NCBI RefSeq assembly: GCF_000317555.1
Contig: NC_019745.1
Span: 3,162,001 to 3,226,000, forward strand
Source: Gloeocapsa sp. PCC 7428
Lineage (GTDB): Bacteria > Cyanobacteriota > Cyanobacteriia > Cyanobacteriales > Chroococcidiopsidaceae
Direction of reading: 5' to 3'
DNA length: 64,000 nucleotides
Shown here: piece by piece, positions 16,368 to 40,485 of the stretch
How positions within the stretch are numbered: position 1 is the stretch's first letter
How the letters are laid out: every line of letters starts with the position of its first letter
Program-made: the position numbers and the translations under genes
Notes under the pieces: model-generated
What the model was told of the DNA's origin: nothing
Database searches by the model: none
The model's input: only the letters and a program-made list of their open reading frames with translations

Positions 16368-18611
16368 TTACAAAGGCTGGTTTAGCTCAGTCAATTCTAA
16401 CCATTGAGGGTTATTAGCCATTAAAGCAGTAGCTGAGGCGCAATTCAAAGATCTTGCGAAGAGATATCCTTGACCAAATTCACAGCCTAAAGTTCTTAGT
16501 ACTGAAAATTGTTCAGGTGTTTCCACACCTTCTGCGACTACATTCATTCCTAAAATATGCGCAAGCGTCGTAATTGTGCGGACAATTTCATAGTTTTCAC
16601 CATTGGAATGCATTCCACTCACAAAAGAGCGATCTATTTTCAAACTATTTATCGGAAACCGATGTAAATAGCTTAAAGATGAATAACCTTGACCAAAATC
16701 ATCAATACTTAACTGAATTCGTCGCGACCTAATTTCTAGTAAAGTCCGAACGGTTTCTTGTGCATACTCAATCAGTGTACTTTCAGTAATTTCTAATTGT
16801 AAGTAACTGCCATCCAATCCAGTTTCAGTTAAAACTCGGTCGATTTGGTGAATAAAATTTGGTTCTCTAATTTGTTGTCCAGCGATATTAACACTTAATT
16901 TAAGCGGCATCAAATGCGGAAATTGTGCTTGCCAAACGTGAAGCTGACGACAAGCTTCTTGTAGCACCCATTCGCCGATAGTCACAATCAAGCCAATATC
17001 TTCAGCGACAGAAATAAAATTTGTGGGGGAGATTAGCCCGCGTTGAGGATGTCGCCACCGAATTAATGCTTCAAAACCTGTTAATTTACCTGTCGTTAAC
17101 GAAATGATTGGTTGGTAGTGGAGGCAAAACTCCTGACGTTCTAACGCTTGTCGTAGATCGCTTTCTAAGCGTAAGAGTTTTAGAGTTTTTTGATACATTT
17201 CTTGGTCAAAGATGGCGTATCGTGCCTTACCTTGTTCTTTAGCTTGATACATGGCGATATCAGCATCGCGGAGTAAATCTTGTGCTTCAAGATAGCTTGG
17301 CGAAGAGAGGGCAATTCCGATACTTGCACTCGAAAAAATTGTGTGGTTTTCGAGTTGGAATGGTGCGGTGAGTTGTGCTTGGAGTCGCTCGGCAATGCGG
17401 ATCGCATCTGTGATATCTTTGATATCGTCGAGGAGAATTGTAAATTCATCACCACCAAACCGAGCAATTGTATCAGTAGAGCGTAAGCATTGTTGAAGCA
17501 GATCGGCGATCGCACATAATAATTGATCGCCTAAAGTATGACCTAAACTATCATTAACAACCTTAAAGCGATCTAAGTCGATAAAAAGTACCGCAAATAA
17601 ATAATTAGTATTGCGCTTGGCGCGGTGTAACGCGCTTTCTAAGCGTTCCATAAATAAATTGCGATTGGGTAAACCCGTTAACGCATCGTGCAAGGCATCG
17701 TACACTAATTGTTCCTCGGCTTGCTTGCGGCGTGTAATATCGTAAACAATGCCATCGAGGCGAACAGCAACACCATTTTCGTAGATAACGCGGCTACGAG
17801 TACTCACCCATCGTACACGACCATCAGGTTGTAAAATTCGATACTCTAACTCGGCACTGCCTTGTTGAAGTAGCATTTGATGCGATCGCTCAACTTTGCG
17901 GCGATCTTCTGGATGCACCGCTTCTAACCACAAATTGGGATTCTCAAAAAATTCAGCAACAGGACGACCATAAACTTTTTGCGCAGCCGGATTGAGATAA
18001 AAAAGCTTGCGGGTTTTTGGACAAACTGACCACACAACTTCTTCTAGGGAATTTAAAATACTTTCAAGTCGTTCTTCACTTTCTTGTAGCCGTTTTTCTG
18101 CAAGTTTGCGTTCTCCGATTTCGCGTTGTAGCTGTTGGTTAGCTGCTTGTAGTTGTAAAGTACGCTGTTGAATGCGTTGTTCGAGTTGGGTATTGAGTTG
18201 AGAAATTTCTGCTTTGGCACTTCGCAGCGCAATCTGACTTTGAACGCGGGCTAAAACTTCTGCAATCTCAAACGGTTTCGTAATGTAATCTACTCCGCCG
18301 ACTTCAAAAGCTTTGACTTTATCAAGCACATCATCCGAAGCACTCAAGAAAACCACTGGAATATCGCGCGTTGTGGGCGAAGCTTTCAGGCGACGACAAA
18401 CTTCGTAGCCATCAAGATCGGGCATTTTGATATCGAGGAGAATCACATCGGGTGGGGCGGTATTAGCTCCCATCAATGCCATAGCACCATTCTTCGCACA
18501 GCGGACTTGATAGCCTTGTCCTAACAAAGTTTTGGACAAGACGCGCAGGTTTTCAGGAACATCGTCAACGATTAAAATTGTGCGTGATGCATCAAGGGGA
18601 GAGCTATTCAT
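16368..18611 (-). CDS. Response regulator with PAS, GGDEF and EAL domains (c-di-GMP turnover)
   Basis: 747 aa cytoplasmic regulator. REC domain about 11-130 (TILIVDDVPENL, phosphoacceptor Asp in VILLDIKMPD, Lys in YITKPF), coiled coil 140-175, PAS/PAC 185-300, GGDEF about 305-470 with an intact ARFGGDEF active site, and EAL about 480-740 with intact EALIRW. Both c-di-GMP synthase and phosphodiesterase motifs look functional. Its start codon overlaps the stop of the upstream hybrid kinase by 4 bp (ATGA), so the kinase is its likely partner. Confidence 0.94.
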   Translation of the reverse strand: MNSSPLDASRTILIVDDVPENLRVLSKTLLGQGYQVRCAKNGAMALMGANTAPPDVILLDIKMPDLDGYEVCRRLKASPTTRDIPVVFLSASDDVLDKVKAFEVGGVDYITKPFEIAEVLARVQSQIALRSAKAEISQLNTQLEQRIQQRTLQLQAANQQLQREIGERKLAEKRLQESEERLESILNSLEEVVWSVCPKTRKLFYLNPAAQKVYGRPVAEFFENPNLWLEAVHPEDRRKVERSHQMLLQQGSAELEYRILQPDGRVRWVSTRSRVIYENGVAVRLDGIVYDITRRKQAEEQLVYDALHDALTGLPNRNLFMERLESALHRAKRNTNYLFAVLFIDLDRFKVVNDSLGHTLGDQLLCAIADLLQQCLRSTDTIARFGGDEFTILLDDIKDITDAIRIAERLQAQLTAPFQLENHTIFSSASIGIALSSPSYLEAQDLLRDADIAMYQAKEQGKARYAIFDQEMYQKTLKLLRLESDLRQALERQEFCLHYQPIISLTTGKLTGFEALIRWRHPQRGLISPTNFISVAEDIGLIVTIGEWVLQEACRQLHVWQAQFPHLMPLKLSVNIAGQQIREPNFIHQIDRVLTETGLDGSYLQLEITESTLIEYAQETVRTLLEIRSRRIQLSIDDFGQGYSSLSYLHRFPINSLKIDRSFVSGMHSNGENYEIVRTITTLAHILGMNVVAEGVETPEQFSVLRTLGCEFGQGYLFARSLNCASATALMANNPQWLELTELNQPL

Positions 18612-21385
18612 AACGAGGATGGCTGAGCTAAGTCGATAATTTGATCAAAGTCAAAGTTATTTACTTTTTGTTGCAATGCTTGTGCTAGGAATGCATAATC
18701 TGTAGGAATTTCTGTAATGAGTTGTGCTATTGTTTCAGCGTCAAGTTTCGCTGCTGCATCGTGCAGTTGCGCGATCCACGCAGTTGGCATCACAAAGTTG
18801 AGGTTGTCAGCATTTAGCACGTAACCTGGGGCTACTTCTTGCAGCGTTTCGCGAATTGAACGTGGATTTTCATAAATATAACGGACACCAAGATGTTGCT
18901 TGAGCTTTTCCCAAATAACTTCTTCGCGAAACGGCTTACGAATAAAATCATCGCAACCTGTTGCTAAGACAGTTGCTCGTTCTTGCTCAAACGCACTAGC
19001 CGTGAAAGCAACAATAATTGTTGATTGACCTTTTGGTTGGGATTTAATATATTGAGTTGCTTCATAGCCATCGACAATCGGCATCCGCATATCCATCAAG
19101 ATGAAGTGTGGTTCCCAGATGTTCCACAGCGCGATCGCGTCTTGACCATTTTCAGCTTCGCGTACCTCAAACCCAATGTTAGTTAGCGTTTGTTTCAGAA
19201 TACGGCGCATCGCTAAGTGATCGTCAACGACTAAAATCCGATACTGTGGTTGTCCTGGCTCTAAACCAATAACGCGTTGAGTCTCAGTTTCTTGTGATGT
19301 AGCTTCGGCGAGTTCAACGGGAATATCGAACTGGAAAATCGTGCCTTTTCCTAACTTGCTACTGAGTGTAATTGCGCCTCCCATTAGTTGAACAAATTTG
19401 TGCGTGATCGCTAAACCTAACCCTGTTCCTTGTTCGGATTTTCGCCCTGTTTCCGTTTGCACAAAAGGTTTAAATAGCATTTCGGTTTCATGCGCTGCGA
19501 TTCCTATTCCCGTATCTTCTACCTCAAAATGTAGTGTTGTTTGTGGAGTGGGCTTTGGTGTTGTATCTTGATTCTCTACGGTTGTTACGCGCAAAAACAC
19601 ATAGCCTTCTTGTGTAAATTTAATCGCATTGCCGACAAGATTAATCAGAATCTGGCGTAGTTTGATTTCGTCTGAATTAATGTAGCGAGGGACTTCTAAG
19701 GTATGCTCAATTTGTAGCTGTAAGCCTTTTAACTGAGCTTTGCAGGAGAACATTTCTTCAATTGTATCTAAAAGGCTATATAGGTCAAAGTTTTTTTTAT
19801 TTAATGTAATACGACCTGCCTCAATTTTTGCCATATCAAGAACGTCATTAATTAATGTCAGCAAGTGTTCGCCACTGCGATTAATAATTTTTAGATTTTC
19901 TCGTTGTTCAGCGGTGAGGGAGGCGTCTTGATTCATCAATGTTGTAAAGCCAAGAACTGCATTTAAAGGAGTACGCAATTCATGACTCATGTTAGCAAGA
20001 AATTCACTTTTAGCACGATTCGCAGCTTCGGCAGCTTGTTTAGCTTCGTTGAGTTGGGCTGTGCGTTTTTCTACTCTTGTTTCTAGCTGTTCAAAGGATT
20101 CTTTGAGTTGTAATGCCATCCGATTAAATGACTGCGATAAGACATCCAGTTCTCTGACTCCTTTAATCTCAACTTTTTGGTCTAAATCTCCATAGGCGAT
20201 CGCTTTGCTAGCTGCGCTGAGTTCTCGAATCGGCTGGGTAATCCATCGCGAGGTCAACATTCCTAAAAGCGTAGCCAGTAGCATTGCTAATAAACAAAAA
20301 ATAATTGTTATTTTTGTATTTTCATTAATCTGTGCCATGAAGTCAGATTCAGGCACAACCACCACCACTAACCAATCAAGTCCAAGTGTGTCTTTCCACG
20401 GTGTTACGTGGACAAAATGACGTTCATTATTGTACTGAAAATTTAGTTCCTGGCTAATACTAATTGTGGTAAAGCCGTTAAATTCATTGTATAAATACTT
20501 TGCTGTTGCTCGAATTAATACATCTTGACTTTGTAAAACATTGAGTCTTTGGGCTTTGCCTTGAAGAAGTGTAAATGGTTTTTCTGTACTCGAACTAGCA
20601 ATTAACTTGCCATCATGCTCAATAATAAAAATTTTTGCTGAAGGACTGATATCTAAACTCCGAATAAAATTACTAATCTTAGTTAGTAAGAAATCTGCTG
20701 CAAACACACCAATGAGTTTTTTGTCTTGATCGTAAATTGGATGACTTGCTGAAATTAACAAGTGACCTGCCGGATCGTTCCAGGTATATACTGGACTCCA
20801 CACAGGTTTTCCTGCTTTGACCGCATACGTATACCAAGATTCCCTCAACGGTTGATAGTTGTCATATACTCTTAAAACTCGCGTGCGATCGCCCTGATTA
20901 TCCGTTGCGTAAGTGTATGCTTTTCCTTGAGTACGCGACGAGAGTTCATCAATAGTTACGCCCTTACCATCTAAATATCGCCCAGATGCAACCAGTTCAC
21001 CTGTCGTGAGCGCATAACCGATGTAGCTAACATCATACACCTGCATCTGTTTCCAAAGGTAACGTCCTGCTGTGTCAAAGTTTTGTAAGTCTAATATTCC
21101 CAGTTGAATGGCATCAATATTCAGCTGATTAATTTCCTGAGGAGTTGATAGATAGCTATCTAGATGCTGTGTCACAAGACGATTGACTTTATCCATCAAC
21201 TGATACGCCAAGTCGTTGACTGCTTGTTGTCCATTACGCAGCGAGAAATATCCAACAATTCCTACAACTGTAAAAATTTGTAGTATAAAAGGTACAATAA
21301 GCAATCGATGTAATGTAACTCCACCAGACTTGTGCGCCTTACTATTCGGTATTTTCAGCAATAGGTTTGGTTTCAGCACCCTCAT
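18608..21385 (-). CDS. Hybrid sensor histidine kinase (Cache-HAMP-HisKA-HATPase-REC)
   Basis: 925 aa membrane kinase. TM1 about residues 28-50, an extracytoplasmic double-Cache sensor about 55-350 (WSPVYTWNDPAGHLLISASHP region, FAADFLLTKIS), TM2 about 355-378, HAMP about 378-430, HisKA with H-box ANMSHELRTPLNAVLG near residue 465, HATPase_c with N box LVGNAIKFTQ, G1 DTGIGI and G2 GTGLGL, then a REC domain (RILVVDDHLAMRR, FILMDMRMPIVDGYEA) and an 85-residue tail. Translationally coupled to the downstream GGDEF-EAL regulator. The ligand is unknown. Confidence 0.94.
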   Translation of the reverse strand: MRVLKPNLLLKIPNSKAHKSGGVTLHRLLIVPFILQIFTVVGIVGYFSLRNGQQAVNDLAYQLMDKVNRLVTQHLDSYLSTPQEINQLNIDAIQLGILDLQNFDTAGRYLWKQMQVYDVSYIGYALTTGELVASGRYLDGKGVTIDELSSRTQGKAYTYATDNQGDRTRVLRVYDNYQPLRESWYTYAVKAGKPVWSPVYTWNDPAGHLLISASHPIYDQDKKLIGVFAADFLLTKISNFIRSLDISPSAKIFIIEHDGKLIASSSTEKPFTLLQGKAQRLNVLQSQDVLIRATAKYLYNEFNGFTTISISQELNFQYNNERHFVHVTPWKDTLGLDWLVVVVVPESDFMAQINENTKITIIFCLLAMLLATLLGMLTSRWITQPIRELSAASKAIAYGDLDQKVEIKGVRELDVLSQSFNRMALQLKESFEQLETRVEKRTAQLNEAKQAAEAANRAKSEFLANMSHELRTPLNAVLGFTTLMNQDASLTAEQRENLKIINRSGEHLLTLINDVLDMAKIEAGRITLNKKNFDLYSLLDTIEEMFSCKAQLKGLQLQIEHTLEVPRYINSDEIKLRQILINLVGNAIKFTQEGYVFLRVTTVENQDTTPKPTPQTTLHFEVEDTGIGIAAHETEMLFKPFVQTETGRKSEQGTGLGLAITHKFVQLMGGAITLSSKLGKGTIFQFDIPVELAEATSQETETQRVIGLEPGQPQYRILVVDDHLAMRRILKQTLTNIGFEVREAENGQDAIALWNIWEPHFILMDMRMPIVDGYEATQYIKSQPKGQSTIIVAFTASAFEQERATVLATGCDDFIRKPFREEVIWEKLKQHLGVRYIYENPRSIRETLQEVAPGYVLNADNLNFVMPTAWIAQLHDAAAKLDAETIAQLITEIPTDYAFLAQALQQKVNNFDFDQIIDLAQPSSL

Positions 21386-24655: not shown

Positions 24656-24928
24656 ATGCGATTAATCTTATACAGTAAGCCAGGGTGCCATTTGTGTGAG
24701 GGATTGGAGGAAAAATTGGCACAAATTCACTCATTCAGCTTCGATTTGGAAGTACGAGACATTACAACTCGTGCAGATTGGGTTGAGACGTATCAGTATG
24801 AAGTTCCAGTCCTGTGTCAGGACAACAATGGCAAAGAAACGCAAATTCCTCGTCCTTCCCCCCGCGCCAGTGTGTCGCAGTTGGAGCAATTGCTACAGAA
24901 ATATCTCAAAACTCATGATTCAGAGTAA
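24656..24928 (+). CDS. Glutaredoxin-family (DUF836-type) thiol protein
   Basis: 90 aa thioredoxin-fold protein with an N-terminal redox motif CHLC in LILYSKPGCHLCEGLEEKL and a cis-Pro in YEVPVLC. It matches the small glutaredoxin-like DUF836 group rather than classical CPYC glutaredoxins. Divergent from cysH and followed by a repeat-rich spacer before murE. Confidence 0.88.
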   Translation: MRLILYSKPGCHLCEGLEEKLAQIHSFSFDLEVRDITTRADWVETYQYEVPVLCQDNNGKETQIPRPSPRASVSQLEQLLQKYLKTHDSE

Positions 24929-25098: not shown

Positions 25099-26619
25099 AT
25101 GAAATTGCGCGAATTGTTGAAAAATATTGCAAGTGTTGTCGAAGTACCCCAACACGCAGCAATCGATACGGAAGTTACGGGGTTAAAAACAAACTCTCAT
25201 GCTTGTCAAGCAGGAGATCTGTTTATTGGAATGCCAGGGACGCGAGTTGATGGCGGCGAATTTTGGCAAAGTGCGATCGCATCGGGCGCGATCGCCGCGT
25301 TAATTTCCACCGATGCGGCAAAAAAACAGCCCGTGACAACGGATGCTTGTGTCATTGTGGCAACTGATATGGTAGAAGCCTGCGCCTCTTCGGCTGCGGC
25401 TTTTTATGGCTACCCTGCAAAACAACTCAAACTTGTAGGGGTGACGGGTACGAATGGCAAAACGACAACAACGCACCTCATTGAATTTTTTCTGACGCAA
25501 GCGCAATTTCCCACTGCATTGATGGGAACTCTCTACACGCGATGGCAAGGTTATGAGCAAACCGCAACGCACACTACACCCTTCGCCGTCGAACTTCAGC
25601 AGCAACTAGCCGCAGCCCGTGACGCGGGTTGTCAGTGGGGCGTGATGGAAGTGAGTTCCCATGCTTTAGCCCAAGGGCGGGTGATGGGCTGTCCGTTTGA
25701 AGTTGGGGTGTTCACAAATTTAACGCAAGACCACCTTGACTTCCACAAGGATATGGAAGATTATTTTGCGGCGAAAGCACTGTTATTTAGCCCTGATTAT
25801 CTTCAAGGACGCGCGGTGATTAATGCGGATGATGCTTACGGACAAAGACTCATTGCACAAATACCTGCGCAGCAACTATGGCGCTATAGCGTCCACAATG
25901 CGGAGGGATCTGATTTTTGGACGAGCGATCTAAACTATGAACCGACGGGTGTGAGTGGAATGCTGCATACACCCAAAGGAGATATTGCGTTTCGTTCGCC
26001 TTTAGTCGGCGAGTACAACCTTTCAAATATGTTGGCATCTGTTGCCGCAGCGTTACACCTGGGTGTAGATTTAGAATTAATTGCCCAAGCTTTACCAAAA
26101 TTTACGGAAGTTCCTGGGCGGATGGAACGCGTGCAAATCGATGCCAAGCAAGATATTAGCGTGATTGTCGATTACGCGCACACACCTGATAGTTTAGAAA
26201 ATTTACTCAAAGCCTCGCGACCGTTTATTCCAGGTAAGATGATCTGCGTGTTTGGTTGTGGTGGCGATCGCGATCGCACGAAGCGTCCGAAAATGGGAGC
26301 AATTGCCGCGCAACTTGCAGATATCGCGGTTGTCACGTCAGATAACCCGCGTACTGAAGACCCCGAACGCATTTTGCAAGATATTTTAGCCGGAATTCCC
26401 AAAACCGTACAGCCAAAAGTAATCGGCGATCGCGCGAGTGCGATTCGTACAGCGATCCTCGAAGCCCAACCAGGAGATGGCGTACTTATTGCGGGGAAAG
26501 GTCACGAAGACTACCAAATTTTAGGAACAGAAAAAATCCACTTTGACGATCGCGAACAAGCAAGATTTGCTTTGCAAGAAAGACACAACGCCCAAATGAT
26601 GCAAGGGAGTGGTGGTTAG
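25099..26619 (+). CDS. murE: UDP-N-acetylmuramoyl-L-alanyl-D-glutamate--2,6-diaminopimelate ligase
   Basis: 506 aa cytoplasmic Mur ligase that adds the third residue of the peptidoglycan stem peptide. ATP loop VTGTNGKTTTTH near residue 115, Mur central-domain motifs (EVSSHALAQGR, FTNLTQDHLDFH) and the meso-diaminopimelate recognition motif DNPR in SDNPRTEDPERIL. The DNPR sequence predicts A2pm rather than Lys in the wall. Single gene, preceded by TGAGGAG 8 nt before the ATG. Confidence 0.96.
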   Translation: MKLRELLKNIASVVEVPQHAAIDTEVTGLKTNSHACQAGDLFIGMPGTRVDGGEFWQSAIASGAIAALISTDAAKKQPVTTDACVIVATDMVEACASSAAAFYGYPAKQLKLVGVTGTNGKTTTTHLIEFFLTQAQFPTALMGTLYTRWQGYEQTATHTTPFAVELQQQLAAARDAGCQWGVMEVSSHALAQGRVMGCPFEVGVFTNLTQDHLDFHKDMEDYFAAKALLFSPDYLQGRAVINADDAYGQRLIAQIPAQQLWRYSVHNAEGSDFWTSDLNYEPTGVSGMLHTPKGDIAFRSPLVGEYNLSNMLASVAAALHLGVDLELIAQALPKFTEVPGRMERVQIDAKQDISVIVDYAHTPDSLENLLKASRPFIPGKMICVFGCGGDRDRTKRPKMGAIAAQLADIAVVTSDNPRTEDPERILQDILAGIPKTVQPKVIGDRASAIRTAILEAQPGDGVLIAGKGHEDYQILGTEKIHFDDREQARFALQERHNAQMMQGSGG

Positions 26620-26742: not shown

Positions 26743-28113
26743 ATGGATTCGCTTTATAAGTCTATTCTCAACGTAGAACCGCCCCCGCAACTTTTAGCTG
26801 TCAGCCCTGCAACTTTGCTTTCATTAGTCAGGGCGACAATAGATGTCCTGATTGAACATCAAATTCCAGCGACGCTATGGCTCAAGCTACCACCAGGTGA
26901 AATTTGGCACGCAGAAATTCAGCGTTACCACAGCCAAGTACAGCAGCCGCATACTACATACATGATTCTTCCCCAAGGCGGCGACAATGCTGACAAATTC
27001 AAGTTTCCTAACGTTCCCATTCCGCTTAAACTAAATAATCAGTTGCGTCGAGAATATTTTTTGGCGATCGCCGCTAGCGATTTTTGTGGTCTCATCCTTG
27101 CATACCGACTCGGACCAAAGCAGCGACAACAGAAACTCAAAGAAAATGCATCCCCGACTGCAATCCGCAAAAAACCGCCTTTAGTTGCGTTTTACTCGTT
27201 TGAAGGACGTGTGATTCAACCAGTACTTAATAGTCTTAAAAGCATTAGTCAATCAGCTACGTTAACTCTAGAAGTTCCAGCAATTCCTGAACCGTTATTT
27301 TTAAATCAAATCTTAACTAAGCAAATTCATCACCAAGAACAAATTCGCAGTCGGACTAAATTACGCCGCGATCGCGCACTTAATAAAGCTACTCGGACGA
27401 AAAAGCAAAGTAGTTTTTCTTTAAAAGATGAGTTTGTAAGTGAGTTGTGTCAAGAACTGCGGACACCTTTAGCGCATATGAAAATGGCACTCAGTTTACT
27501 CAATTCTCCGCAACTTAAACCTGCACAAAAACAAAGGTATTTGCAAGTACTTAGTACAGAATGCGATCGCCAAAACTCGCTCATTAATGGTTTATCAGAC
27601 TTAATCCAGCTTGAACGTGCGGTACAAACACCTTTAGAATCAGTGCGCTTAAGTGAAATTGTCCCTGGTGTTGTCAGTACATATCAGCCATTGGCAACCG
27701 AAAAAGGCATTATGCTTGCTTACACCGTACCTGAGGATTTACCTTCCGTTTCTTGTGTGAGTGCTTGGCTTAAACAAATTGTGATTAACTTATTGCACAA
27801 CAGCATCAAGTTTACTCCTACTAACGGTCAAGTTTGGGTGCGATCGCGTCTGCAAGGCGATTTTGTCCAACTCGAATTTCGCGACACAGGTATTGGTATT
27901 GCACCGAGTGAAATTCCTAAGATCTTCGATCGCTTCTATCGCGTCCGCCCCGCCGCTGGTGAAGATGGTAGTGGTGCAGGGCTAGGCTTAACCATTGTGC
28001 AACAACTTCTCTTACGCTGTGGTGGCTCGATCTCAGTCAAAAGCCGCTTGGGAGAAGGTTCGACTTTTAATGTGCTTTTACCTGTAGATACTTCTGACAG
28101 GTCGGGAAGTTGA
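26743..28113 (+). CDS. Sensor histidine kinase-like protein lacking the phosphoacceptor His
   Basis: 456 aa, soluble. The N-terminal ~190 residues form a sensor module I read as DICT-like (REYFLAIAASDFCGLILAYR; PLVAFYSFEGRVIQP). The dimerisation/H-box reads SELCQELRTPLAHM: Gln (codon CAA at 27451) stands where HisKA has His. The catalytic domain looks intact: N box LLHNSIKFTP, G1 DTGIGI, F box FDRFYR, G2 GAGLGLTI. It should bind ATP but cannot autophosphorylate at the usual position. It is on the opposite strand to a second kinase (28935-30431) with a similar N-terminal module. I have a vague memory of cyanobacterial relatives sharing CQELRTPL, so the change may be conserved rather than a mutation. 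Confidence 0.85.
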   Translation: MDSLYKSILNVEPPPQLLAVSPATLLSLVRATIDVLIEHQIPATLWLKLPPGEIWHAEIQRYHSQVQQPHTTYMILPQGGDNADKFKFPNVPIPLKLNNQLRREYFLAIAASDFCGLILAYRLGPKQRQQKLKENASPTAIRKKPPLVAFYSFEGRVIQPVLNSLKSISQSATLTLEVPAIPEPLFLNQILTKQIHHQEQIRSRTKLRRDRALNKATRTKKQSSFSLKDEFVSELCQELRTPLAHMKMALSLLNSPQLKPAQKQRYLQVLSTECDRQNSLINGLSDLIQLERAVQTPLESVRLSEIVPGVVSTYQPLATEKGIMLAYTVPEDLPSVSCVSAWLKQIVINLLHNSIKFTPTNGQVWVRSRLQGDFVQLEFRDTGIGIAPSEIPKIFDRFYRVRPAAGEDGSGAGLGLTIVQQLLLRCGGSISVKSRLGEGSTFNVLLPVDTSDRSGS

Positions 28114-28124
28114 AGGCGTAGGGG

Positions 28125-28169
28125 AGCCAGTGTCGTGCGGAGGTTCCCTCCTTTGAGTGCAAGTGGCGT
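28125..28169 (+). repeat. 45-bp palindromic repeat (AGCCASTG...CAAGTGGCGT family), copy 1
   Basis: Starts AGCCAGTG, has a GGAGG/CCTCC central hairpin and ends GCAAGTGGCGT, preceded by GGGG. A homologous 44-bp copy lies at 41908-41951, nested in another repeat. The 28114-28282 spacer also has a CCGGCGCGC...GCGAA repeat remnant. Confidence 0.7.
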
Positions 28170-28282
28170 GAGCAGAAGGGATGGGGTGAGTGCGAAACAG
28201 AAAGTTATAAGGGTTGAGTTAAAAAAATCTATTAATAATTGCCTCCGGCGCGCTTACGCGAACAAAACTCAAAATTAATCAC

Positions 28283-28873
28283 TCACTCCTCGCCCCTAGC
28301 CCCACGCTCCTCATTTGGTATGCGCCAGTAAATACTATTCTCGCGTTGCATGAATTGATAGCCGATCAGTTCGCGACGTAGTGTGGCGCAGTCTTCGTGG
28401 TAGCGCTTGAGGATAGTATTAACTTTAATTTCAGGGTACTTGACTCCTGTTTCAAATTGGTTTACTAACCACTTGAGAATGACAACGCGCTTTCTGCGAC
28501 TTGCCGGAATTTCTTTGAGTCGTCCATCAACGAGAAAGTTTTGCAATACTTTACGTTCCCAGGCTTCGCCTTCGATATTTTCAGCTAACGAAGCAATCTG
28601 CTTTGGCGAAAAAATCTCTTTGCTGATACCTTGCAAAGCTTCAGTGTCTAGCTGATACAGATGGGTATTTCCTTCAGCGCGCATTTTTACCAACTGCAAC
28701 TCTTTGAGCTTATTGAGATGATGCGATACCGTTGGTTCTTTCAATTGCAGTAATACAGCTAATTCTTCCACACTGCATTCTCGATTCGCTAGAATCCCCA
28801 GCATCTTCAATCGACTTTCGTCGGCTAGCACTTTAAAAAAGCGCAGCAGCGATCGCATGATATCTTGTTCCAT
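28283..28873 (-). CDS. ArsR-family transcriptional regulator with DUF2087 domain
   Basis: 196 aa. Residues 8-85 are a winged helix-turn-helix of ArsR type (LADESRLKMLGILANR, ELAVLLQLKEPTVSHHLNKL recognition helix, wing region EGNTHLYQLD). Residues about 115-185 are a DUF2087 domain (IPASRRKRVVILKWLVNQF ... YHEDCATLRRELIGYQFMQR). No CxC-type metal site is visible, so the signal is unknown. The last residues NEERGARGEE are encoded by a heptamer array. A perfect palindrome 6 nt upstream of the ATG is a likely autoregulatory operator. It follows the 28935-30431 kinase gene on the same strand (61-bp gap). Confidence 0.92.
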   Translation of the reverse strand: MEQDIMRSLLRFFKVLADESRLKMLGILANRECSVEELAVLLQLKEPTVSHHLNKLKELQLVKMRAEGNTHLYQLDTEALQGISKEIFSPKQIASLAENIEGEAWERKVLQNFLVDGRLKEIPASRRKRVVILKWLVNQFETGVKYPEIKVNTILKRYHEDCATLRRELIGYQFMQRENSIYWRIPNEERGARGEE

Positions 28874-28878
28874 TTCTC

Positions 28879-28900
28879 TAATTAGACCGATATCTAATTA
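28879..28900. promoter_or_regulatory. Probable ArsR operator (8-6-8 perfect palindrome)
   Basis: TAATTAGA, 6-nt spacer CCGATA, TCTAATTA. The palindrome ends 6 nt before the start codon of the ArsR-DUF2087 gene and covers its ribosome-binding region. Length and symmetry fit a dimeric winged-helix repressor; autorepression is inferred. Confidence 0.7.
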
Positions 28901-28934
28901 AAAGTTTATCGAATGAGTTGTCGTTTTGCTAGGT

Positions 28935-30431
28935 CTAACTGCAATATTCGGTCTGCTTAACGTCCAATGGTAAGAAAATCGTTAAAACTTCGCCTTCGTG
29001 CGGGCGTTGGCGCACGATGAGTTTACCGCCAATTGCTTGAAACAGCTGCTTAGTAGCTGTAATGTTCAAACTAATAGTGCCTGTTTCGGGTTGAAACGTG
29101 AGTAACTGCCCTAGTGACTTGCGAATCGGTGGAACTGTAGATTGTTGTCCTTTATCGTTTTCGCCTAGCTGAGACTTAGGCAACAATTGCAACTTTAACT
29201 GATCTCCCGCAGGAATAACTTGCACTTGGATATGGCTTCCTGGCGGTAAGCTGCGCGTAAAGTTTTCAATTAGCCCTGTTAATACTTGATCCAGCATTTT
29301 TGGATCGCTAACGACGGTTGGTAGCTGCTGCTGCGGTAAAACAACATCCAAAGTCAAGTTACGCCGACTCGCTTGTTTTTGCCAACGCGGAACACTTTGC
29401 TGTAGTACCTGCGTTAATGACATCGCCGTTAAATAAGTACCTGAGTGCTTAGCAGTACACTTTTCTAGTTCTGCTGCACGAAATAAAAGTTCCATGCGGT
29501 CGATTTGCTCGGTACACTCATGGTCAATGATTTCTAACCGTTTGAGCGCATCAGTCGCCAAGTCGCGGCGCTTGAGGAGCAAGCGAGTCAATGTCCGAAT
29601 CGTTGTTAACGGTGTCCGCACTTCATGCGCAAATGCTTGCAGTAACTCTACATCGGAGCGCGGTGCGGAGGAACCAAGTTCCGAGTTATGATTTCGGATT
29701 GCACTATCACGCACTTCTTCGTGTGGCACTTCTGGCATATGCCGCAACAGCAAGCGACTAAAGTGCATGACTGTTTGGTAATCTGGCGCGATGGGATAAT
29801 ATTGTTGAACTAATTTATCAAGATGTAATACTGACTCAGAAGTTGTCAGCGCGGCTCTTGCTCGCAGCGCATACCACGCTTGTTCAACGACTTCTGGTTC
29901 AAACGAAAATAAAAATATTGGTACGCCACCGTTTTCGGCTAAAACCATCACAAAGCTAAACTGTGCGGTTAACACTAAACAAAACTGTTCCTGTGCTAGC
30001 GGATCTCCAGGAAGCAACGGTAATGGAATTCCTGATTCGGCAGCTAATTGTAAAGTTTTGTGTGCCGCAACGCAAGTAACATCTGCTGGAAGTAGTTGAT
30101 GCTGCCAAGAATCTTTAGTAAAAGTCCACGCGGGTAGCTTGCTAATAAGTTGGGGATTGGCGATCGCTGGTGCAAAACTTGCCAACACAACTCCTTGCGG
30201 CGATGCACTGCAATTCTCATCAACCGTGTCTTGAAGAAGTGTTTGTCGTAGTAGGTTCTCTAAGGCGGCGATCGCAACGTGCCATTGCTGCGCTGCTTTG
30301 ACAGGCTTATCTGCCAAAGTACATTCTTCGCTAGTTGGAGACACTAGGCAAGAATTGCTACCATAGCCGCCGTGCTGTGCGTCGTTGCTCGCTAGTATTT
30401 CACTCAGTGTTGGGATTATCCATTTGCGCAC
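28935..30431 (-). CDS. Sensor histidine kinase-like protein with a degenerate ATPase domain
   Basis: 498 aa, soluble. The N-terminal ~230 residues include a module similar in pattern to that of the 26743-28113 protein (QFCLVLTAQFSFVMVLAENGG; IFLFSFEPEVVEQAW), DICT-like in my reading. The H-box is intact (QAFAHEVRTPLTTIR, His near residue 269, codon at 29625-29627). The C-terminal domain keeps an N-box-like LIENFTRSLPPG but the DxGxG G1 box is replaced by LLPKSQLGEN and G2 by ETGTISLNIT, so ATP binding is doubtful. Upstream of and probably co-transcribed with the ArsR gene. Confidence 0.85.
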   Translation of the reverse strand: MRKWIIPTLSEILASNDAQHGGYGSNSCLVSPTSEECTLADKPVKAAQQWHVAIAALENLLRQTLLQDTVDENCSASPQGVVLASFAPAIANPQLISKLPAWTFTKDSWQHQLLPADVTCVAAHKTLQLAAESGIPLPLLPGDPLAQEQFCLVLTAQFSFVMVLAENGGVPIFLFSFEPEVVEQAWYALRARAALTTSESVLHLDKLVQQYYPIAPDYQTVMHFSRLLLRHMPEVPHEEVRDSAIRNHNSELGSSAPRSDVELLQAFAHEVRTPLTTIRTLTRLLLKRRDLATDALKRLEIIDHECTEQIDRMELLFRAAELEKCTAKHSGTYLTAMSLTQVLQQSVPRWQKQASRRNLTLDVVLPQQQLPTVVSDPKMLDQVLTGLIENFTRSLPPGSHIQVQVIPAGDQLKLQLLPKSQLGENDKGQQSTVPPIRKSLGQLLTFQPETGTISLNITATKQLFQAIGGKLIVRQRPHEGEVLTIFLPLDVKQTEYCS

Positions 30432-36788: not shown

Positions 36789-37784
36789 TTATGTACCTTC
36801 TGGTAAGTATTTAAACAAGTCATCCAATACTTTATTCGCTCCTAATATGCCTGCTGCACTCCAAACTTCTTGATTGACAACATAGGCTCGATTATTTTTG
36901 ATAGCTTTTAAGTTTCTAAATATTGGATGTTGAAAATAGAAGCTTGATGGTCTTTCAGCAATATTTATGATAAATAGGATATCAGCATCATACTCACGAA
37001 TCGTTTCAATGCTGAGTGGTGGTTTCATCAAATTTCTATCACTAGACAGAAACTTGTAGCGCAACCCAATATCATTAAAAATACTAGGAATTAAAGAATT
37101 CATTTGATTGTTAATTGTATAAATGACATCCTCACCATAAAAAATTACAGCGATCTCTAACTGCTGCAACTGCCTCCCTAATTTTTCCCTCAACTGATTA
37201 ATTCGTTCTTCATATTCTTTTAGAATTTCCTCTGATCTTGATTCTTGATTAAGTAATTTAGCAATATAGCGAAGGTTTTGTTTAAAGAAAGCTTGGTCTG
37301 TGGATATAAGATCCGAAAATGGAGAAGGCACTGAAACAGTGGGTGCGATCGCTGATAATGATTCATATAGATGAGCGTCGAGGGATAATAAGATCAAGTC
37401 AGGTTTGAGCAGTAGAATTTTTTCAAAGGAAGGTTGATAGACATTCCCAACATACTCAGCACCTGCAACTGCATCAAGCGATGCACCAAAGAGACTTTGC
37501 TTTCCTTTGTTTAGAATATCGTAGCTAGTATATCCAACGGGCTTGATACCGAGAGCGATGAGGGCATCAAGATTGTTTTCAGGAGATAATGTAACAATAC
37601 GCTGTGGTTTCAGTGGAACGCAAGTTTCGCCAAAGTCGTGCTGGATGATTCGGCACTCAGCAGAAGGCTTCAAGGAGATATCAGGTCTTTGGGTAAAAGT
37701 TTGGTGACAAGCTGTAATTAAGAGTAAGGCAAAAGTCATTAGTAAGAACAGCTTAACTAGACGACATGACTGTTTTTTCATCAT
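36789..37784 (-). CDS. Iron-siderophore ABC transporter substrate-binding lipoprotein
   Basis: 331 aa. The signal peptide ends in a lipobox (LLLITAC, Cys about residue 26), so it is a periplasmic lipoprotein. The body is a FecB/FhuD-type (Peripla_BP_2) binding protein: PQRIVTLSPENNLDALIALGIKPVGYT, LKPDLILL, TVSVPSPF. It hands a ferric siderophore to an inner-membrane ABC permease, which is not encoded in the window. Third gene of the minus-strand block regulator - TonB receptor - lipoprotein (139-bp gap to the receptor gene). Confidence 0.92.
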   Translation of the reverse strand: MMKKQSCRLVKLFLLMTFALLLITACHQTFTQRPDISLKPSAECRIIQHDFGETCVPLKPQRIVTLSPENNLDALIALGIKPVGYTSYDILNKGKQSLFGASLDAVAGAEYVGNVYQPSFEKILLLKPDLILLSLDAHLYESLSAIAPTVSVPSPFSDLISTDQAFFKQNLRYIAKLLNQESRSEEILKEYEERINQLREKLGRQLQQLEIAVIFYGEDVIYTINNQMNSLIPSIFNDIGLRYKFLSSDRNLMKPPLSIETIREYDADILFIINIAERPSSFYFQHPIFRNLKAIKNNRAYVVNQEVWSAAGILGANKVLDDLFKYLPEGT

Positions 37785-37923
37785 TTTGACTATGCTAAAG
37801 CCCTAACTGGGAACTGGAATCAATAGAAAACCTCTAGCTTGGTAAAAGTCAATGAAACTCTGGCAAATACTTAAATTGTTTACACCAAGTTGTACTTACA
37901 GATCTGCACCAAGCTAGAATAAA

Positions 37924-40485
37924 TTAAAATTCCCAGGAAAGAGTTCCCTGCACAGTAAATGGGTCTCCTAAATAAACATTGTTCCTACCATTAGCTGAGG
38001 CAAAATACTCAACATCAAATAAATTTTTGAGGTTTAGAGCGGCTCGGAAGTTATTTCGTGTATAAAATATTGCGGCATCTGTGCGAACGTAGCTGGGTAA
38101 TTGAAAGGAGTTATCTAGATCGCCTTGCCGTTCTCCAGCATAAAAGACACCTAGACCAAAGCCCAGCCCTTGCAGGCTTCCAGACTGTAGTTCGTAGGTA
38201 GTCCATAAATTGAAAGAAGTCCTCGGCGTATTATTCAATTGATTGCCAACAGGTAGAGTGTTATCTTCAGTAATTTCTGCATCAATTAGTGCGAAGCCTG
38301 CAAAAATGTTCCATCCAGGTAAAATTTCGCCGGATAAATCTAGCTCAACGCCTTGGCTGCGCTGCTCACCCGTCTGAATAGAAAGTAAAGGATTGTTTGG
38401 ATCGGTGGTTACAACATTAGTACGAGTTAAATTGAACAACGCAAGTGTTGCTGAAAGTCTGTCGGTGATATCTGCTTTTACACCAATCTCGTACTGTGTG
38501 CCTCGCTCTGGTTTGAATTGACTACTGATATCAACTGCTCTGCCTTGTGCTGGAGAGAATGAGCGGCTATAACTTGCATAGAGTGCAATGGGTTCAATGG
38601 GTTGGTAAACAATTCCAATCCGTGGACTAAAAGCCTGTTCTTGCTGAGACGCACGTTGGAAAAAGGGAACAAAAGCAGCTTCTTGCTCTACAATATCAAA
38701 GCGTCCACCGAGAAGCACTTTCAGATTTTCTGCCAGAGTCATTTGGTCTTGCAGGTACAACCCTAGCCCCTGGGTTAGGAATCTTGCATCTTGATCAGGT
38801 ATTGGATCTGACAAATCCGCTAAAGTAATTGCTCCGTAGACAGGATTAAAAACGTCGATTGCAGGCAGGATTCCTTCGATGCCATCAGTATAACGAAGGT
38901 CTTCTCTATAAAGGTTAAACCCTGCTACTAGTTGATGTTGAATACTGCCAGTTGAAAACTCTCCAGCTACATAGTTGTCTAGTTGATAGCTTTCAAGAAA
39001 ATTGTCAGACTGGATATAGAGCCTGGGCTGTTCTCGTTTATTGTCTAAAAAACTTAGAGGGACATTTACCCTAACATTTTCTTTCCAAAACACGGTTTGG
39101 AGGCTACTACGAACTTGCCAGTTTTCGCTAAACCGATATTCAAGATCGTAGCCAATCCGGTACAGGTCGGTATCATCATCATTTTCTAATGAAGGCTCAC
39201 CTCTATAGCGGTTTCTAGGAATTTCACCGTTGGGGTTTGGGAGTACACTTCCTTCTGCTGGAAGACCATAATCTGTTTTTGTTCCAGTAATTCTTTGGTA
39301 TTCAGCATCGAACGTTAGTCTTGTTTGCTCACCAATTTGCCAGGTTAAACTAGGTGCCACAAGGTAAGTTTGTCGCTCGAAAAAGTCAATAAAGCTTCCG
39401 GTGGTATTCGCACTGGCATTCAAACGGTACAAAACGGTTATGTTATCATCTGTGCTTTCATCGAGCGGTCCAGATAAATCAATTGAACCCCGATAGGTAT
39501 TGAAACTACCGACGGTAGCCTCAATTGAATAAAATGGTTCTCGTAGAGGTTTTTTGGTGATGATATTAGCTGCTCCTCCTAGGGTTCCTAAACCAAAGAG
39601 AACGGAAGCTGGTCCTTTGAGGACTTCAACACGCTCAATATTATCGGAGACGGTGTAGCTGTAGTCAGCCCCCAAGGTATCTGGAGATCCGTTTCTCAGG
39701 ACTTCAAGTTCAAATCCCCGACTGTTAAAAAAATTGGAAACTGAACGAGGCGATCTAAATGACCCTGTTATGCCTGGTACATTTTCTAAAATTTCTCCTA
39801 GACGGTTGGCATTTTGATCTCTAATTACTTCCTGTGGCACAACTTGAATCGATTGGGGAATATCGCGCAGTGGGGTATCGGTTCTGGTTCCTACACTAGC
39901 ACTTGACGGGTTATAGCCCTCATCTTGCTCCCCTGTCACTACTATTTGAATTTCATCTTCCTCTACCGATATATTTTCTGTATCCGGTGATACACTTAAC
40001 ACCAATCCCTGCACATCAGGTTGTACCTCAGCCACAGGTGGCGCATCGGTTCCTGTAATCGCTACCTGTACTCGCTCACCAGGCATTGTCACCGTTACTA
40101 GCGCAATTCCCGCCGTTGGTTCAGCCGCAGAAAATTCTTCTAGCAGCACTGCATTGGAAATATCTACAATCAAAGTATTGCCCGTTACTGTTGTCGTTGG
40201 TGTTGCCAGTTCGCCAGTGGTTTGTAGCACCACTTCTAACCCTGTTTCCGTCTGGTACACTCGAACTGCGGTAATCTCAACAAGCGATCGCACAATTTGG
40301 GCTTGCCATTCGGCAATTGTCCTTGCAGGCTGCTTGATTTCGGTACGCGATGCCTCAACATCTACAACCCGTTCCGTCTGTGCCGCAGCAGGCGACATTA
40401 ATCCTACAGCAACCAGCCACAAACCCACGCCCCACGACAGTCGAAACACAATTGATCGCACCTTCACCACACTCCAGTTCTGCAA
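37924..40485 (-). CDS. TonB-dependent siderophore receptor with N-terminal AMIN domain
   Basis: 853 aa outer-membrane receptor. Signal peptide (cleavage after PAAAQ), AMIN domain about residues 70-175 (AVRVYQTETGLEVVLQTTGE), TonB-box-like EIQIVVTGEQ about 185-195, plug about 205-310 (TPLRDIPQSIQVVPQEVIRDQ, VEVLKGPASVLFGLGTLGGAANIITKKPL split across the plug), then a 22-strand barrel ending in an aromatic terminus (SWEF). The AMIN fusion is typical of cyanobacterial siderophore receptors and probably contacts peptidoglycan. Regulated, by inference, by the PchR-like gene 61 bp upstream. Confidence 0.94.
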   Translation of the reverse strand: MQNWSVVKVRSIVFRLSWGVGLWLVAVGLMSPAAAQTERVVDVEASRTEIKQPARTIAEWQAQIVRSLVEITAVRVYQTETGLEVVLQTTGELATPTTTVTGNTLIVDISNAVLLEEFSAAEPTAGIALVTVTMPGERVQVAITGTDAPPVAEVQPDVQGLVLSVSPDTENISVEEDEIQIVVTGEQDEGYNPSSASVGTRTDTPLRDIPQSIQVVPQEVIRDQNANRLGEILENVPGITGSFRSPRSVSNFFNSRGFELEVLRNGSPDTLGADYSYTVSDNIERVEVLKGPASVLFGLGTLGGAANIITKKPLREPFYSIEATVGSFNTYRGSIDLSGPLDESTDDNITVLYRLNASANTTGSFIDFFERQTYLVAPSLTWQIGEQTRLTFDAEYQRITGTKTDYGLPAEGSVLPNPNGEIPRNRYRGEPSLENDDDTDLYRIGYDLEYRFSENWQVRSSLQTVFWKENVRVNVPLSFLDNKREQPRLYIQSDNFLESYQLDNYVAGEFSTGSIQHQLVAGFNLYREDLRYTDGIEGILPAIDVFNPVYGAITLADLSDPIPDQDARFLTQGLGLYLQDQMTLAENLKVLLGGRFDIVEQEAAFVPFFQRASQQEQAFSPRIGIVYQPIEPIALYASYSRSFSPAQGRAVDISSQFKPERGTQYEIGVKADITDRLSATLALFNLTRTNVVTTDPNNPLLSIQTGEQRSQGVELDLSGEILPGWNIFAGFALIDAEITEDNTLPVGNQLNNTPRTSFNLWTTYELQSGSLQGLGFGLGVFYAGERQGDLDNSFQLPSYVRTDAAIFYTRNNFRAALNLKNLFDVEYFASANGRNNVYLGDPFTVQGTLSWEF

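Follow-up and report, generated by a model that had tools for sequence, protein, structure and literature searches.

One kinase can be regulated through heterodimerisation with another, as in RetS-GacS. Kinase function can also be split between proteins, as in CheA3/CheA4 of Rhodobacter sphaeroides (PMC3591291), and DivL of Caulobacter provides a precedent for a kinase homologue that lacks the phospho-acceptor histidine and binds a response regulator (PMC4211667). Hik34 (slr1285) of Synechocystis is described in PMC4390874 as carrying a HisKA domain only, with neither ATP-binding motifs nor a transmembrane segment, in which it is unique among 47 kinases. The same paper and PMC3264485 report that Hik34 alone autophosphorylates in vitro, and this activity without a recognisable ATP motif has been left as an oddity. 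Here, we describe two convergent genes from a 64,000-nucleotide stretch of Gloeocapsa sp. PCC 7428 (NC_019745.1, positions 3,162,001 to 3,226,000; hereafter the window) whose products, P1 and P2, are DICT-type histidine kinase homologues with opposite lesions: P1 has lost the histidine and kept the ATP-binding motifs, and P2 has kept the histidine and lost the motifs. These complementary lesions are ancient and conserved rather than a quirk of one genome, and such opposite defects make it a testable question whether P1 helps or controls P2.

The two genes and their parts lie in the window as follows:

26743..28113, + strand: P1, a DICT-HisKA-HATPase_c protein of 456 residues with Gln237 and intact ATP motifs (list of open reading frames and Pfam)
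26749..27108, + strand: DICT sensory domain of P1, residues 3-122 (Pfam PF10069, E=1.8e-31)
27451..27453, + strand: CAA codon for Gln237, the phospho-acceptor position of P1
27763..28089, + strand: HATPase_c domain of P1, residues 341-449, with invariant N353, D381 and G383 (Pfam and alignment)
28935..30431, - strand: P2, a Hik34-like kinase of 498 residues with His269 kept and a catalytic and ATP-binding (CA) domain without DxGxG
29625..29627, - strand: His269 codon of P2 (HEVRTPL), computed from the start at 30431 and residue 269
28962..29306, - strand: degenerate CA domain of P2, residues 376-490, with an FQPETGxxSLNLxxTK block in place of the F/G2 region

Both open reading frames lie where an earlier note, made from the letters of this DNA, had placed them, and its reading of their motifs holds. 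The H box of P1 has Gln (CQELRTPL), encoded by the CAA codon at 27451 and corresponding to residue 237, and its N, G1, F and G2 boxes are intact (LLHNSIKF, DTGIGI, FDRFYR and GAGLGL; HATPase_c E=5.7e-27). P2 keeps its histidine (HEVRTPL, His269), with LLPKSQLGEN where the G1 box would align and ETGTISLNITATK at the G2 position. Pfam finds DICT, HisKA and HATPase_c in P1, each above cut-off, the architecture of DICT-domain kinases (PF10069); in P2, HisKA is above cut-off and both HATPase_c (E=0.0087) and DICT fall below the curated cut-off. P2 has no transmembrane segment (best 19-residue hydropathy 1.5), and its structure model folds as a kinase core. The structures closest to P1 are HK853-regulator complexes and DivL; DivL ranks near the top of the structural matches for both models, and PDB 7n0e, a RetS-GacS entry, also matched. 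Like DivL, P1 is a HisKA-type homologue that has its histidine replaced and keeps the fold of the dimerisation and histidine phosphotransfer (DHp) and CA domains. Unlike DivL, which has Tyr, PAS sensors and weak ATP binding (PMC4211667), P1 has Gln, a DICT domain and every ATP motif.

Loss of the histidine is a property of the whole P1 family, which has orthologues in 134 of the 291 genomes of the class and in 90 of the 118 genomes of one large family, taken to be Nostocaceae. Among 161 orthologues the H-box position holds Gln in 148, Leu in four, Arg in four, Glu in two and His in only three, so homologues do not usually carry His. All 161 share N353, D381 and G383 without exception, and 131 of 134 retain G385 and the G2 glycines. 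Parsimony requires only five changes at the His site on a 134-taxon tree with a total length of 30.5 substitutions per site, built from P1 kinase cores with that site excluded. The DHp and CA domains of P1 are equally conserved (0.71 and 0.70), E238 is kept in 128 of 134 orthologues (E or D in 129), and the T, S or N four residues past the His position (T/S/N241) is kept in 123. As a control within the same genome, His is present in all 28 other kinases sampled, including two other DICT kinases, which, unlike P1, keep His, are longer and have an extra region between DICT and HisKA. That Gln reflects a sequencing error or the decay of a dying gene is hardly credible: its presence in 148 of 161 orthologues and the strong constraint on both DHp and CA refute it. 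From its intact motifs, we predict that P1 binds ATP well.

Three P1 orthologues (L028, L359 and L384) carry isolated Gln-to-His reversions, each amid Gln-bearing relatives. His can therefore return and is tolerated, and the three natural revertants are ready-made comparisons. A literature search on cyanobacterial kinases without His yielded plant phytochromes only, and a search outside which most subscription journals fell turned up no account of a conserved DICT kinase without the histidine. P1 represents an old, conserved and large family of His-less kinase homologues that is apparently undescribed.

P2 shows the reverse pattern. Its relatives occur in 274 of the 291 genomes, normally in one copy, and His is kept in 108 of 109 aligned members and in all 80 P2 proteins of named loci. 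Loss of the G1 motif, which the earlier note had reported for this protein, extends to the family: DxGxG and the G2 box are absent from all P2 sequences displayed, drawn from many families, and the members share another conserved block, FQPETGxxSLNLxxTKNLFQALGGKL. Pfam finds HisKA in 50 of 50 family members and HATPase_c, weakly, in 23, with no match in the rest. One P2 relative (L234:109-2763, + strand) forms the end of an open frame of 885 residues, which exceeds the usual length by several hundred and may be a fusion. As a soluble cyanobacterial protein of near-universal occurrence, with a His-bearing HisKA domain and no recognisable ATP motif, P2 resembles Hik34. It is very probably Hik34, matching the published description on every point tested, in a comparison made with that description and not with the slr1285 sequence. 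The passages available from the Hik34 papers (PMC4390874, PMC3264485) mention neither a DICT-type domain nor a His-less neighbour. P1, which is conserved, His-less, retains its ATP motifs and is often encoded tail-to-tail with the Hik34-like gene, is a concrete candidate partner.

The N-terminal modules of P1 and P2 are alike, as the earlier note had suggested. Profile-profile comparison relates them with 96% probability (E=1.2e-9) over the same segments that it had quoted, pairing REYFLAIAASDFCGLILAYR with EQFCLVLTAQFSFVMVLAE; cross-domain controls reach at most 2%. DICT is above cut-off in 20 of 20 P1 family members and sub-threshold in the P2 family, and the Gloeocapsa sp. PCC 7428 genome has only four above-threshold DICT proteins. 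The DICT region of P1 (conservation 0.46) is less conserved than its DHp and CA domains. Reduced forms occur at L174, L176, L177 and L179 and at L171 and L225: in some genomes P1 is a core of about 250-300 residues without DICT, and in one genome (G014) P1 and P2 are both shrunk to short open reading frames.

Adjacency of the two genes is far above what chance would give. Within the 118-genome family they lie no more than 2.4 kb apart in 45 of the 88 genomes having both, against a chance expectation of about 0.08 genomes; all 45 pairs are convergent, with gaps from 25 bp. Class-wide, 25 of 134 loci, spanning nine families, have P1 and P2 no more than 20 kb apart. P1 lies within 8 kb of P2 in 20 of the 80 named P2 loci, and none of the readable P1s has His. 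At a looser threshold, the neighbours in these 80 loci are P1 in 22, MurE in 21, glutaredoxin in 17 and CysH in 11. Of about 217 genomes with P1, only four gave no P2 match: the fragmented G261, G279 and G288, and G312, at 95% completeness. This rarity is expected if P1 serves P2, but is roughly expected also from the near-universal presence of P2. In two genomes (G303 and G319), P2 lies near ndhC; none of the 80 named loci comes from Synechocystis. The genes around the pair in the window are:

24656..24928, + strand: glutaredoxin-like gene, a member of the conserved murE block
25099..26619, + strand: murE, directly upstream of P1 in most compared loci
28283..28873, - strand: gene with an ArsR-type helix-turn-helix and DUF2087, between P1 and P2 (Pfam)

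The last of these, whose presence the earlier note had pointed out, is a local insertion outside the conserved pair; it was otherwise seen only in the sister genome and in none of the 80 related loci.

We tentatively favour, at somewhat less than an even chance, the reading in which P1 binds ATP, lacks the histidine and serves as a regulator in trans; the Hik34 pathway is the foremost candidate for its target. P1 is, to judge from its sequence, a soluble DICT-sensor protein that keeps its DHp helices and ATP-binding domain and is unable to self-phosphorylate in the usual way, and P2 is very probably a Hik34-type kinase, one that keeps its histidine and has a remodelled ATP-binding domain. P1 would act on a His-bearing partner or on the response regulator of that partner, most plausibly in the pathway to which its neighbour P2 would belong, Hik34-Rre1, in chaperone and heat-stress control. 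The effect could pass through DHp/CA contacts: P1 could form a heterodimer with its partner, phosphorylate His269 in trans or dephosphorylate the regulator. The shared pathway of P1 and P2, their contact and every catalytic step are what we infer here. Relative to RetS-GacS, the sensors differ, and contact between P1 and P2 is only proposed.

The earlier note had offered a trans-phosphorylating heterodimer or a pseudokinase regulator. Both lesions proved to be conserved in their families, P1 is strongly constrained at its ATP site, the genes are neighbours far above chance and P1 is seldom seen without P2, all of which agree with that proposal. An obligate pair is not supported: about half of cyanobacteria have P2 and no P1, which means that P2 cannot need P1 everywhere. 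Autophosphorylation by the second kinase alone, which the note had set against its own proposal, is reported in PMC4390874 and PMC3264485 for Hik34, which P2 probably is. The pseudokinase-regulator version fares better than the obligate heterodimer. Several further observations weigh against a dedicated P1-P2 relationship. In a mirror-tree test with MurE as control, P1 distances correlate less with those of P2 (partial correlation 0.48) than with those of MurE (0.62), so the covariation is not pair-specific. The kinase core of P1 clusters with two further kinases from this genome and not with P2; a joint clade of P1 and P2 is compatible with the data (approximately unbiased test, p 0.43), a sister grouping being neither shown nor rejected. 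murE is linked to P2 as frequently as P1 is (21 versus 20-22 of 80 loci), so the adjacency of P1 and P2 belongs to an old block and may be mere old gene order. The assignment of P2 to Hik34 itself comes from a match to the published description, not from a sequence comparison with slr1285.

On such grounds P1 and P2 might be functionally independent, remaining neighbours through persistence of an old block, cysH-grx-murE-P1 and P2, with P1 serving another His-bearing partner or murE-related control. The position of P1 directly 3' of murE in most loci, the equal linkage of murE and P2, the roughly half of genomes that have P1 and P2 unlinked and the persistence of P2 where P1 is lost all fit this account, which would leave the opposite lesions of two neighbouring DICT-type kinases, in a genome with so few DICT proteins, as a coincidence; we consider it doubtful, if a serious contender. 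P1 could instead be a pseudokinase, phosphatase-only or phospho-sensing, that is directed at a response regulator, uses ATP or ADP as cofactor and opposes a His-bearing kinase that need not be P2. The DHp of P1 has no His but retains the acidic residue of the phosphatase motif and, mostly, its Thr, so a role directed at a regulator is no less open than trans-phosphorylation, and the equal conservation of DHp and CA, the HK853-regulator complexes among the nearest structures and the DivL precedent (PMC4211667) point the same way. However, no cognate regulator is adjacent, His-less mutants of the EnvZ type may sequester rather than dephosphorylate (PMC8971529), and DivL is a poor binder of ATP without phosphatase activity (PMC4211667), in contrast to what the intact motifs of P1 lead one to expect. 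We judge this role unlikely.

A special case of the favoured regulator reading is a split kinase, in which ATP bound by P1 would phosphorylate His269 of P2 in trans, within a heterodimer or between homodimers, and P2 would pass the phosphoryl group to Rre1. The complementary family-wide lesions, the strict retention of the P1 ATP motifs, the convergent gene order and the scarcity of P1 without P2 are consistent with it, and CheA3/CheA4 is a biochemical precedent (PMC3591291) in which, likewise, ATP-binding function and the phospho-acceptor histidine sit on two proteins. CheA3/CheA4, however, is of CheA type, lacks whole domains and is an obligate pair, whereas P1 and P2 are of HisKA type, have lost motifs, and P2 often occurs without P1. 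The genomes with P2 alone, the autophosphorylation of Hik34 alone reported in PMC4390874, the undemonstrated sister relationship of the two cores and the three sporadic His reversions in P1 all tell against a split kinase, and we regard it as improbable. Equally much of a long shot is its extension to the phylum, a split HisKA kinase in which P1 would phosphorylate or license Hik34 in trans and so join two DICT signals before the chaperone response. The rivals partly overlap the favoured reading, so the confidences behind these wordings should not be expected to add up to one.

One of the two kinases nearest P1 in the tree, encoded in the same genome (G000:C1:4318024-4318743; L350), is of PAS type; it keeps His and the F and G2 boxes and has an insertion and SVKNQAEI replacing DxGxG, so that its G1 box too is odd. 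Within the window, no response regulator is adjacent to the pair, in agreement with the earlier note; the nearest receiver domain seen belongs to a hybrid kinase at 18608-21385 (- strand), with the architecture dCache-HAMP-HisKA-HATPase_c-receiver and intact motifs. On the other side of the pair, at 36789-40485 (- strand), a periplasmic-binding-protein-like gene lies beside a TonB-dependent-receptor-like gene, which from their reading form an apparent iron-siderophore uptake locus.

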